Positions 56,561 through 59,609 of a DNA stretch of 64,000 nt are shown here, piece by piece. The stretch is from Haloglomus salinum (lineage in GTDB: Archaea > Halobacteriota > Halobacteria > Halobacteriales > Haloarculaceae): positions 1,426,001 to 1,490,000 of the forward strand of contig NZ_CP101153.1 of assembly GCF_024298825.1 (NCBI RefSeq), written 5' to 3'. Position 1 is the first letter of the stretch. Each line of letters starts with the position of its first letter. The notes beneath the pieces were generated by a model that was not told the DNA's origin, did no database searches, and was given only the letters and a program-made list of their open reading frames with translations. The position numbers and the translations under genes are program-made.

Positions 56561-56865
56561 ACCGGCCCGAGACGGGCCGCGTACTAAGTCCTTGCAGTAT
56601 CCCGGCAGGCGGCCACACGGCCGAGGGGACCACCCGGGCACCGCCAGACGCGCCCCGACCACCCCCAGACCGCCTCCGTTTCGAGTCCAGATACCGACCT
56701 GTCCGGTCGCATAGAGCGTGCACAACGCCAGGTAGCTCCCCGGTAGCCGCGAATCGACGGCTACCGTGTCATAATTTCACGGCCCCAAACCGCATCTCCA
56801 CCGGAAGCGGAGGGGTTCGCGGGCGCGGGCGGAACGGTGATGTGCCCGACCGCCCCAGCCCCGCT

Positions 56866-57483
56866 ATGCGCATCGCACCCGGTGCCGGTCGCTACGCCGT
56901 CGCCGCCACGCTCGCGGGCCTCGCGACCGCCCGACGGCTGGGACGCCGCGCGGCCGTCGCGCTCGGCCTTCTGCTGGCGGGAGCCGTCCTCGCATTCCAC
57001 CGCGACCCCGAACGCACACCGCCCGATAGCGGGGCTGTCGCGCCCGCCGACGGCGTGGTGTCGGTCGTCCGCACGGAGGAACACGACGGCGACGCCCGCG
57101 TCCGCGTGGGCATCTACATGAACGCCGCGAACGTCCACGTCAACCGCGCGCCGCTCGCGGGGCGTGTCGAGGCGGTCGAGCACATCGCGGGGGGCCACCG
57201 GCTGGCGTTCTCGAAGGAGTCCGAACACAACGAACGCGTCCACGTCGACATGGCGCGCGAGACGGGTGACTACCGCGTGACCCTCATCGCGGGCGCGTTC
57301 GCCCGGCGCATCCACCCGTACGTCGAGGCCGGGCAGGAACTCGAGCGCGGCGACCGCATCGGCCACATCTCCTTCGGCTCGCGGGCCGACGTGCTGCTGC
57401 CCGCGGGCGTAACCGAGGCGGACGTGCTGGTCGAGGAGGGTAAGGCAACGCGGGCCGGGGAGACGCGAATCGCGGATATCTGA
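56866..57483 (+). CDS. asd: Archaetidylserine decarboxylase
   Basis: The 205-residue protein is a PSD-family enzyme that makes archaetidylethanolamine by decarboxylating archaetidylserine. It has one N-terminal hydrophobic helix region (AVALGLLLAGAVLAFHRDPER), the conserved FSKESEHNERVHVDMA and the self-cleavage site at GHISFGSRADVLLP: cleavage between G171 and S172 forms the pyruvoyl group. Haloarchaeal Asd is linked to PGF-CTERM anchoring by ArtA, because the anchor is thought to be an archaetidyl lipid. Two PGF-CTERM proteins are in this window. The gene is convergent with the following low-GC patch. Confidence 0.93.
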   Translation: MRIAPGAGRYAVAATLAGLATARRLGRRAAVALGLLLAGAVLAFHRDPERTPPDSGAVAPADGVVSVVRTEEHDGDARVRVGIYMNAANVHVNRAPLAGRVEAVEHIAGGHRLAFSKESEHNERVHVDMARETGDYRVTLIAGAFARRIHPYVEAGQELERGDRIGHISFGSRADVLLPAGVTEADVLVEEGKATRAGETRIADI

Positions 57484-58092
57484 TTCGCTGCGGGCGACTC
57501 GTGGCGAGAATCGGTCATGCGCGTCGTGACCGACTTAGAGGATGTAGTCAGCGGAACGAATCTGATTCTCCCGCGCCGAAATGAGCCTCCGAGTCATTAC
57601 TTTCACAGAGCTATCCTGAGCTGGTGAAAAGAGCAACCACGTACCCAATCAGGACACCTAACGAGATCGTAACCAATTCCGAGCCCACAGTCACCACCCC
57701 AAAGAGACTCAGGTAATTGATGAGGAGGAAGAGGACGAACCCAAGAATCAATGCGCCAACGAGAGGGCCTATCTCCTTCAGCTGTATTGTGGGCATTGTT
57801 CGACAGGTTCTCGCCTCCGGTAAGTGTCTTCCTCCGTACCGACCAAGCCTCGGTTATCATACATCGGTTGGTCAATTCCCGACTTGCGCTCTCTATTCAG
57901 CACTACCCTCCAGATATTCCCCGCTGATGACATGGTACGTAATCATACCCGCAGCCACTGTCCTCACTAGTCACTTATTCCCAACTATCTAAACAGAAGA
58001 AACAACACGGTGTCAGAATGGGCCATTTCTAACGAACTACGGCCATAATGGCAAAATAACTCCCAGAAGTTATGGATTCGAGGTGCGACAGC
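57484..58092. other. Low-GC accessory patch between asd and the LAGLIDADG gene
   Basis: This 609-base stretch has clearly lower GC than its flanks. It holds one small membrane gene (57611-57796). The part 57797-58092 (about 296 bases) has no gene I can support; it contains AT-rich runs and would lie downstream of the LAGLIDADG gene. I looked for a second, GC-rich copy of the pcn 3' end here and did not find a convincing one. Confidence 0.5.
57611..57796 (-). CDS. Small low-GC membrane protein, 61 aa
   Basis: The protein starts MPTIQLKEIGPLVGALILGFV and has two hydrophobic helices (GALILGFVLFLLINYLSLFG and LVTISLGVLIGYVVALF). Its codons are AT-rich, unlike asd beside it, so it came with the patch. 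Function unknown. The protein could be a small membrane partner or a passenger of the mobile patch containing the LAGLIDADG gene. Confidence 0.6.
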   Translation of the reverse strand: MPTIQLKEIGPLVGALILGFVLFLLINYLSLFGVVTVGSELVTISLGVLIGYVVALFTSSG

Positions 58093-58857
58093 TTAGTCCT
58101 CTACTTCGATGGTCTGCGTCGCGTGCTCCTCGTACGCCTCCTGTTTCAGTTCGTGGTACTGCTCGCGGGAGCCGAGCGCCCACTTGTACTCGAAGCCAGG
58201 CAGCGGATCGCCCATCCACTCGACGAGGTGCTCCGTCTCGTCGCACGTGAACCGAAGTTCGTGACGCTTGTACAGCGGGGAGAAGCCCACGTCCTCGAAC
58301 AGCCCAACCAAGAACTCGGCACGCTTCTCCTCGTTGCGGGCCTTGATCTCGATTCTGGGACGACCATGCTGCCCGACATCGAGGTAGCCGTCACAGAGGT
58401 ACCAGAGCTTGGCTCGGAGCGGTGTCAGTTCGAGATCATCCGGAAACTGCTTGTTACGGTCTGGATACCACCGCTCGCGCAGGTCCTCGAAGTACGGATG
58501 CGTGCGCGTCCAGATGGTGTACATGTCGTGGTACCGCTCTTCCTTCGCGTTCGGACTGAACCCGCTCTCGCGGTTGTTGCTGGCGAGTTCCGAGGCGGTC
58601 TTCTTCAGCGAGACGCCCGTCGTGAGGATGCCGAGTCGCTCGTCGATCCACTCCAGAAAGCGGCGGTTGATCATCGGGAGATGGAGTAGAGCACTATTGC
58701 CGCCGCTCTGTTTCGGTATCGACCCATCGCCAATCAGCAGGCCCTCGAACACCGCCTCCTGAATCGGAGATATCTCTGGGTACGGACAGGTGCCGTGTGA
58801 CCAGTGAAGCCCCGGCTTGTCGAACTCTTCACCGCAAGACGGACAGATTCCGCTCAT
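58093..58857 (-). CDS. LAGLIDADG homing endonuclease with N-terminal zinc knuckle
   Basis: The 254-residue protein has an N-terminal zinc finger (C5, C8, H18, H21, C24: CPSCGEEF and HWSHGTC), then two LAGLIDADG motifs: FEGLLIGDGS (residues 38-46, Asp 44) and LWYLCDGYLD (residues 151-160, Asp 156). This is a monomeric two-motif meganuclease that should cut a long asymmetric site. It begins 8 bases downstream of the pcn stop and may be translated from the pcn transcript. Homing nucleases of this type also occur in inteins of pcn in some haloarchaea. Whether it cuts pcn itself is inferred from position only. Confidence 0.88.
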   Translation of the reverse strand: MSGICPSCGEEFDKPGLHWSHGTCPYPEISPIQEAVFEGLLIGDGSIPKQSGGNSALLHLPMINRRFLEWIDERLGILTTGVSLKKTASELASNNRESGFSPNAKEERYHDMYTIWTRTHPYFEDLRERWYPDRNKQFPDDLELTPLRAKLWYLCDGYLDVGQHGRPRIEIKARNEEKRAEFLVGLFEDVGFSPLYKRHELRFTCDETEHLVEWMGDPLPGFEYKWALGSREQYHELKQEAYEEHATQTIEVED

Positions 58858-58865
58858 CCTCTGAT

Positions 58866-58919
58866 TCAGTCGCTCTGGATACGCGGCGCTAACATATAAG
58901 TGATTTTACCTTTCCCTTC
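58866..58919 (-). other. AT-rich 'recoded' 3' end of pcn
   Basis: The last ~18 codons of pcn use GAA, AAA, GGT, AAA, ACT, TAT, TTA and CGT, all rare in the rest of the gene, while the protein ([14 protein letters not shown]) stays family-like. The switch lies around 58919, beyond which codons are C/G-ending. This is the same kind of boundary as in the helicase at 23739 and lies next to the LAGLIDADG gene. Confidence 0.7.
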
Positions 58920-59609
58920 CGCGATATCGAAGTGCATCTTGACGGGGAACTCCTCGCCCAGCTCCATCCGGACCTCCGCGTCCTTCGGGATGGCCTTGTT
59001 CATGTCCTTCAGATAATCGAGCGAGAACAGCGAGCGGGCCTCGCCTGCCTCGAGGTCGATGAGGTCGTCGCGGGTGAGCGTGAGGTGGACGTCGTCGGTG
59101 TCGCCCTCGGCCTCGACGTAGAACTCCTCGGCGTCGACGTCGACACCGAGCGCGATGTGGTCGCTCACCATGTCGGCGGCCTTGACCGCGCGGTCGATGT
59201 CCTTGCCCTCGACGACGATCTCGGCGGGGAGGTCCAGGTCCGGGAGGTCGGGCTCCTGGCGGATGGAGTCGGGGTCGATGAGCGCGAGCGTGCCCTCCAG
59301 GCCCTCGATCTGGATGTGGAGCTTGCGGGTCTCCTCGTCGAGTTCGAGCTGGACGAGTTGGCCCGAATCGGCCATCCCCACGAACTCCTCCAGCCGCGCG
59401 AGGTTGACACCGATGATGCCGCCGTCGGTCTCGTAGGACTCGAAGGCGTCCGCGTCGAGCGAGAGGTCCACCATCCCGACGTTCGCCGGGTCCACCGCGC
59501 GGATGGCCAGTCCGTCCTCGTTGAGATTGATCTTGCACTCGTCGACGAGCACGCTGACGGAGTCGAGCGCGGACTCCAGCGTGTCCGCGCTCACGATGGC
59601 CTTGAACAT
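58866..59609 (-). CDS. pcn: DNA polymerase sliding clamp PCNA
   Basis: This complete 247-residue PCNA begins [19 protein letters not shown] and has the conserved segments [36 protein letters not shown] and the C-terminal MLAPRIQSD, where clients bind in the interdomain-connecting region. It forms the trimeric clamp for replicative polymerases, FEN1, ligase and others. The sequence is uninterrupted, with no intein, but its 3' end differs in codon use (58866-58919). Stop is TGA at 58868-58866. A LAGLIDADG gene abuts it. Confidence 0.97.

Follow-up and report, generated by a model that had tools for sequence, protein, structure and literature searches.

The last codons of pcn, the gene for the DNA polymerase sliding clamp, and the freestanding homing endonuclease gene directly behind it in Haloglomus salinum probably form one mobile cassette. 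This would consist of a monomeric LAGLIDADG nuclease gene and the synonymously altered last 12 to 17 pcn codons; the nuclease would cut an unaltered pcn end, the cassette would replace that end by copying, and the recoding would make the carrier immune. The comparisons that support this reading are the nuclease's predicted fold and intact acidic motifs, the linkage to pcn, the recoding in every carrier, the exchange of tail and nuclease as a unit, repeated gain or loss, and the branching of the nuclease tree, which does not follow the host families. From the sequences, we infer its remaining parts, i.e., the unaltered pcn end as the cleavage site, immunity through recoding, and spread by break repair. 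The features lie in a 64,000-nt stretch of the H. salinum chromosome (contig NZ_CP101153.1, 4.19 Mb, positions 1,426,001 to 1,490,000; here called the window) as follows.

57484-58092, no strand: AT-richer stretch with no clear gene, between the nuclease gene and a convergent gene (56842-57483); GC ~0.45-0.56 in 100-nt windows from 57500
58093-58857, minus strand: freestanding LAGLIDADG homing endonuclease gene, 254 aa, two motifs (PF03161, E 2.1e-10; PHROG 11023, E 2.5e-48)
58390-58392, minus strand: Asp156 codon, LAGLIDADG motif 2 (WYLCDGYLD), invariant in 18/18 aligned relatives
58726-58728, minus strand: Asp44 codon, LAGLIDADG motif 1 (GLLIGDGS), invariant in 18/18 aligned relatives
58786-58845, minus strand: N-terminal Cys5-Cys8-His18-Cys24 cluster, four residues invariant in 18/18 aligned relatives
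58858-58865, minus strand: spacer of 8 nt from the pcn stop to the nuclease ATG (coordinates of both genes)
58866-59609, minus strand: pcn, DNA polymerase sliding clamp, intact, 247 aa (NF002222 over residues 1-247; PF00705, PF02747)
58869-58904, minus strand: last 12 pcn codons, whose homologues co-segregate with nuclease type in family f4 (Mantel test)
58905-58919, minus strand: pcn codons -17 to -13, recoded too in the window genome (AT-rich codons)

The recoded pcn end and the nuclease gene in the window

The initial annotation had described a recoded pcn end of about 18 codons with a freestanding LAGLIDADG gene 8 nt past the stop. The recoding is real, and the coordinates bear out the spacing. 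The last ~17 codons (58869-58919, minus strand) are rich in AT; their sequence, with the stop, is GAA GGG AAA GGT AAA ATC ACT TAT ATG TTA GCG CCG CGT ATC CAG AGC GAC TGA. The estimate of its extent was fair: recoding starts at about codon -17 here, and in family f4 the last 12 codons are those that co-segregate with the nuclease. The GC3 of pcn is 0.95 in the body versus 0.57 in the last 14 codons, and the 14 lowest-GC3 windows of 14 codons all begin at codon 221 or later. For the background, we ran a simple codon-position gene caller on 464 kb of the same genome (i.e., the window and 400 kb of other stretches). A GC3 drop of at least 0.3 at the gene end was found in 3 of 361 called genes including pcn, and 2 of the 32 genes with a GC3-rich body and a same-strand gene no more than 30 nt downstream showed an end drop, pcn among them; since the caller is crude, these counts are background estimates. 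Two other genes with a strong end drop are located at C1:1214858-1215658 (0.55), where the neighbouring genes drop in GC3 too, and C1:1255630-1257483 (0.37).

The nuclease scored 41.2 bits against PF03161 (curated cut-off, 25). Its AlphaFold model (pLDDT 89.6; pTM 0.85) matched I-WcaI (Z 19.2; rmsd 2.8; 207 residues) and I-SceI (Z 18.4-18.8) best, followed at Z 11-12 by matches that include I-Tsp061I, PI-PfuI, and I-DmoI. We therefore predict a monomeric LAGLIDADG endonuclease with an I-SceI-like fold. The likeness to I-SceI and I-WcaI lies in this predicted fold (Z 18-19 over ~205 residues) and in the two motifs, each with an invariant Asp. Those two enzymes are intron-encoded, whereas the pcn-linked gene lies outside any intron, shares 16% identity in the alignment, and has the N-terminal Cys-Cys-His-Cys cluster, which by its residues possibly binds metal. 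Searching solved structures with the nuclease sequence gave nothing meaningful (best E 0.2), and no NCBIfam model matched at E 0.1. The pcn frame is continuous over 247 aa with the nuclease ORF outside it, and a Pfam scan gave no intein domain; the gene is borne by neither an intron nor an intein.

Distribution of the nuclease and of the recoding

Nuclease relatives were detected at E 0.001 in 49 of 391 genomes of the class, and the neighbourhoods of 30 of these were covered (the other 19 have matches of E 6e-17 or weaker). Nineteen of the 391 genomes, the window's included, carry a pcn-linked nuclease or a clear remnant, in every case behind pcn. They comprise the window, 14 further full-length copies (53-67% identical; L012 among them has two internal stops), and four broken copies or remnants (L019, L027, L030, and L033). 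The gap between the two genes is small, except for ~180 nt at L019 and a maximum of ~540 nt at L007. A tree of 29 nucleases unites the 14 intact pcn-linked copies in a single clade (support 98/97). No pcn lies near the nuclease in the remaining 11 of the 30 genomes, whose best matches are at most 44% identical over long stretches; the nucleases of four of these 11, and a second copy in the window's genome, lie beside thyX. Relatives of the pcn-linked clade also occur in 21 phage records, at 21 loci of viral contigs, and in 6 plasmid records, with no more than 43% identity; neither pcn nor thyX was found in any of the 21 viral nuclease loci (E 1e-5; flank up to 3 kb). With viral and plasmid relatives so distant, and without pcn or thyX beside the viral ones, no phage or plasmid vector was identified.

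Related nucleases just behind thyX (named from its sequence) were seen at L003 (window genome, C1:4042577-4046101), L021, L022, L247, L249, L256, and L264. The four genomes of genus g27 with a nuclease hit at the thyX locus end thyX in GCA CCA or GCT CCG; among the other 14 genomes of the genus, 9 end in GCG CCC and 1 in GCT CCG, a weak parallel to the pcn tail. At L020 and L025, a nuclease of another clade is located upstream of thyX, and that of L020 ends a few nucleotides before the thyX start. In the viral contigs L231, L232, L233, and L236, the nuclease follows the same kind of gene, with products that end in similar residues, which suggests that gene ends serve as addresses in viruses too. 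The window's genome also holds a related nuclease frame with an internal stop (L002, C1:3976431-3980099), followed by what we take to be ribosomal protein genes.

We compared 191 pcn loci (179 distinct) drawn, not at random, from best-match lists and chosen places. The 179 loci include 21 carriers (14 with an intact and 7 with a decayed nuclease) and 158 non-carriers. The drop in GC3 from body to tail averaged 0.40 in carriers, exceeding 0.2 in 21 of 21, versus 0.05 in non-carriers (U test, p 2.7e-11). Within genus g20, the means were 0.36 for 12 carriers and 0.20 for 39 non-carriers (p 0.0015); in genus g4, the drops were 0.54 and 0.73 in the two carriers versus -0.12 to -0.01 in the eight fetched non-carriers. 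Recoded ends (i.e., a drop of 0.2) without a nuclease were found at 27 of the 158 loci: 24 of 62 in carrier genera versus 3 of 96 elsewhere (L117, L040, and L133; p 1.9e-11). The U test and the genus counts ignore kinship, which independent pairs on the tree of pcn bodies take into account; among 10 such pairs, recoding accompanied the nuclease in 6.5, had the opposite direction in 0, and showed no difference in 3.5, which is modest support (median p 0.031; range, 0.004-0.125). At L013 and L111 (G196 and G394), pcn matched in two overlapping pieces, probably owing to a frameshift or sequencing error, and only the C-terminal parts were used; the pcn of L133 is six bases shorter.

Relatives with an unoccupied site had been predicted to keep GC-rich tails. 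This holds for all eight fetched non-carriers of genus g4 and fails at the 27 recoded nuclease-free loci. Recoding without a nearby nuclease had been named beforehand as speaking against the reading, and it exists; but 24 of the 27 cases are in carrier genera, a concentration that fits loss of the nuclease after recoding.

Exchange, loss, and scars

Family f4 has two main nuclease types, ~35% apart in protein: type A (L009, L011, L012, and decayed L030, with L013 nearest to it) and type B (L010, L014-L018, and decayed L027 and L111). Ten f4 loci with a full-length nuclease thus allow the histories of pcn and nuclease to be compared within one family. Nuclease distance correlated with the distance between the last 12 pcn codons (Mantel r 0.86-0.88; p 0.0004-0.0005) and not with that between pcn bodies (r 0.03). 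Among six-codon windows, r was 0.87 for codons -12 to -7 and 0.74 for codons -6 to -1 (each p 0.0005), versus 0.15 (codons -18 to -13) and 0.10 for the two windows upstream of -12; 12-codon windows upstream of codon -13 gave r -0.16 to 0.28, none with p <0.05. Codons -17 to -13 accordingly show no link to nuclease type in this family, while recoding begins at codon -17 (L005) and -16 (L006) in these two carriers of family f1. With L013 excluded, the values were 0.94 for the tail and -0.13 for the body, the first ~630 nt of the nuclease gene were type-specific (r >=0.96), and the last ~110 nt were not. Past the nuclease stop, sixteen 30-nt windows gave r -0.30 to 0.31 (lowest p 0.054; nine g20 loci); with L013 included, one of six scorable 60-column windows reached r 0.38 (p 0.022), two of the eight being unscorable. 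The flanks agree with each other (pcn body versus DNA after the nuclease, r 0.81 in f4). Since the host background is continuous on both flanks, the segment from codon -12 to near the nuclease C terminus has a separate history. Tail and nuclease thus form one exchangeable cassette with a sharp left edge at codon -12, and the final ~110 nt of the nuclease gene, which the types share, may act as the right homology arm when they replace each other. The exchanged unit is observed in f4; a cut is its presumed trigger. The initial annotation had assigned the recoded end to the nuclease element, and this gains from both comparisons: in f4 the tail tracks the nuclease type, and on the pcn tree nuclease presence and recoding coincide.

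The tail might instead be the left margin of imported AT-richer DNA that hitch-hikes with a nuclease whose cut site lies elsewhere (in the spacer, in the neighbouring gene, or far off) and that gives no immunity. The base composition leaves some room for this: GC3 is 0.55-0.85 in the nuclease genes versus 0.94-0.98 in the pcn body, the AT-richness of the tail may derive partly from an AT-rich cassette as a whole, and the sharp edge at codon -12 could mark the start of any heterology. In 5 of 15 loci, the tail's GC3 is not lower than that of its own nuclease gene; in the other 10 it is lower, which speaks against hitch-hiking. The Leu codon at -8 (in M-L-A-P-R) argues the same way, being TTA, CTA, or CTT, i.e., three different codons, in 14 of 14 intact carriers. 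CTC occurs there once among all 21 carriers, at L012, the locus with two internal stops in its nuclease; genera in which no carrier was sampled have CTC or CTG at 92 of 96 loci, and 526 of 555 Leu codons in carrier pcn bodies are CTC or CTG as well. Recoded tails also persist where there is no nuclease. We consider hitch-hiking unlikely.

The differences in the tails are mostly synonymous: against their nearest unscarred relatives, 14 tails of 17 codons showed 100 codon differences that are synonymous and 31 that are not. Over the last 17 codons, 5-17 of 51 sites differ, compared with 13-51 of up to 450 in the body, a contrast inflated to an unknown extent because the comparators were picked for GC-rich tails. 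The element thus supplies the 3' end of its host gene with mostly synonymous differences.

The carrier state changes 16 times on the pcn-body tree, at least 10 times on well-supported branches, and by this tree the cassette is gained or lost repeatedly. It has apparently also moved between families, as judged from one AU test: the nucleases of G184 (f4) and G222 (f2) fall together, and a single f4 clade was rejected (p 0.014). Sporadic presence with mobility, as in intronless homing, is therefore seen here in the 19 of 391 genomes, the at least 10 state changes, and the grouping across families. Decay is visible in relatives of the window's genome: a recoded tail stands with nuclease remnants of 40 and 61 codons in G389 (of the window's genus) and in Haloglomus irregulare (L095), respectively, and the pcn of the latter is 94% identical to that of the window.

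Non-carriers also have cassette-like tails. In genus g20, 20 of 39 non-carrier tails are nearer to type A or B, 14 are nearer to the native consensus, and 5 are tied; outside g20, the native consensus is the nearer one for 25 of 29 non-carrier tails in f4 and for 79 of 90 in other families. The last 36 coding nucleotides of nuclease-free L076 and L099 are identical to those of type B carrier L016 (0/36 differences), from which their pcn bodies diverge by 3.4% and 8.5%. At the 27 recoded loci without a nuclease, tblastn (E <0.05) detected no remnant of one downstream, and DNA matches there were 24-31 nt long, compared with 21-28 nt at 118 unscarred controls. They are therefore scars by their tail sequence alone, or their tails were recombined in without the nuclease.

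Such tails invite the reading that they are host resistance alleles, built up by point mutation under nuclease attack, beside which a nuclease that brings no tail was acquired later. Their frequency without a nuclease in carrier genera (24/62), the lack of remnants beside them, and the differences in codon choice between lineages are all in its favor. The family f4 data point the other way, since tail type there tracks nuclease type and not the host; so do the 36 of 36 identical tail sites on pcn bodies 8.5% apart, and the type A tail, which holds the start codon of the nuclease. We regard this origin as rather improbable.

Start codons were read off the sequences. The sole in-frame start found for the type A nuclease is a GTG inside the pcn tail, its first base 7 nt before the last base of the pcn stop; it exists because the Ser codon at -2 is AGT, not AGC. 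Type B starts with TTG 1 nt past the pcn stop. The distance past pcn is 8 nt in the window, 10-16 nt at L005 and L006, 60 nt at L008, and ~540 nt at L046. The last locus is that of Halarchaeum rubridurum (L094/L046), where the gap appears, by eye, to hold a small reverse-strand ORF and the tail is still recoded. That the AT-rich pcn end merely lets ribosomes start on the nuclease gene, with no relation to DNA cutting, agrees with a nearest in-frame start no more than 16 nt from the pcn stop, or within the tail, at 13 of 15 loci examined, but it is very improbable, and we reject translational coupling as the sole cause, given recoded tails at L008 and L046, with starts 60 nt and ~540 nt off, and at loci where no nuclease follows, and an end drop in only 2 of the 32 close gene pairs of the host genome, pcn included.

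A GC-rich native tail displaced downstream of the element had also been expected. We aligned the native tail consensus locally, on one strand, with the DNA downstream of the nuclease, and at 11 loci (12 segments) nothing scored above the best of 30 shuffles; the closest was the window locus (22 versus a shuffled maximum of 23). None was seen at the printed f4 junctions either. A displaced tail is thus rejected for these 11 loci, where an old, decayed one may remain, and a duplicate of the native end, as in the fungal mORFs discussed below, was not found there. At the g20 junctions inspected, the nuclease is followed directly by the end of the convergent gene next to it. In full-length g20 carriers, homology resumes exactly at the nuclease stop, and in the g20 non-carriers aligned with them, it resumes mostly ~55-115 nt past the pcn stop (~450 nt at L109), at the end of the convergent gene. 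Since no displaced tail was found and the nuclease abuts the convergent gene, the pcn end seems to have been replaced and not pushed downstream.

Proposed mechanism, related systems, and significance

In the mobile cassette proposed here, the nuclease, translated right behind pcn, would encounter a chromosome with an unaltered pcn end and cut it in a conserved stretch that encodes 13 residues. Repair of the break would copy the cassette from the carrier chromosome, with pcn as the left homology arm and the next conserved sequence as the right one, so that the old tail and spacer would be lost. The new tail would encode nearly the same clamp end, and the nuclease would no longer fit it. Later, the nuclease would decay or be exchanged, often with the recoded tail left behind as a scar. 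Because the element carries its own rewritten pcn end, it probably spreads by end replacement and leaves the clamp unharmed.

A possible, more tentative extension is that rival cassettes compete for the 3' end of pcn as a docking site in haloarchaea. Types A and B, which meet in one genus, and further types elsewhere would evict each other, each tail being resistant to its own nuclease and open to the other's. The pcn end would then be the element's antidote, and hosts would keep recoded ends as lasting protection once the nuclease has gone.

The nearest described kind of element is the C-terminus-supplying mORFs of fungal mitochondria, in which an endonuclease ORF brings a foreign, mostly synonymous C terminus, as described for atp6, atp9, cox2, and nad3 of Glomus, with the atp6 case of Allomyces macrogynus cited among them (PMC3630166). 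The native gene end is duplicated downstream of the ORF there, or, for atp9, also completely replaced by the insert; the hybrid gene is expressed, and horizontal movement of the gene end together with the ORF is proposed (PMC3630166). The two systems share an endonuclease ORF directly behind a conserved gene and a supplied end that differs mostly synonymously, and they differ in the native end, which lies downstream in mORFs as described in that account and was not found at the pcn loci (PMC3630166). The comparison with a fungal mitochondrial atp6 element, made in the initial annotation, holds for the supplied gene end and not for a native end downstream. Further differences are that the present element sits on an archaeal chromosome, at a replication clamp gene, and that exchange edges were mapped, two nuclease types compared, and recoded ends without a nuclease found.

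In the intronless homing of phage T4, freestanding endonucleases cut alleles that lack them and convert neighbouring DNA, and the cleavage sites of free-standing enzymes are described as hundreds or thousands of bp from their own genes (PMC2988022). The pcn-linked gene likewise lies outside any intron or intein; unlike in T4, the suspected site is within ~70 nt of the nuclease gene, and the cassette includes the host gene's end (PMC2988022). Freestanding PF03161 nuclease genes on haloarchaeal chromosomes are also known from glycosylation islands of Haloferax, where LAGLIDADG_2 genes have flanks that resemble no protein-coding gene; the portion of that account dealing with them mentions no recoding of a neighbour (PMC5867893). 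Another account, PMC10643990, has mcm inteins as its subject. Among titles and abstract openings of the open-access literature, with subscription papers mostly outside this scope, we found no account of a pcn-linked or gene-end-supplying homing element in archaea.

These results point to a selfish nuclease that lives at an essential gene of an archaeal chromosome without an intron or intein and carries the end of that gene along. The target of the nuclease and the logic of its self-immunity are open to direct test with short DNA fragments. The results also call for caution, as synonymous shifts at the ends of haloarchaeal genes can be footprints of mobile elements and not expression signals. 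Silent positions near the pcn end seem to record the visits of such elements, and past invasions may therefore be readable from the sequence.
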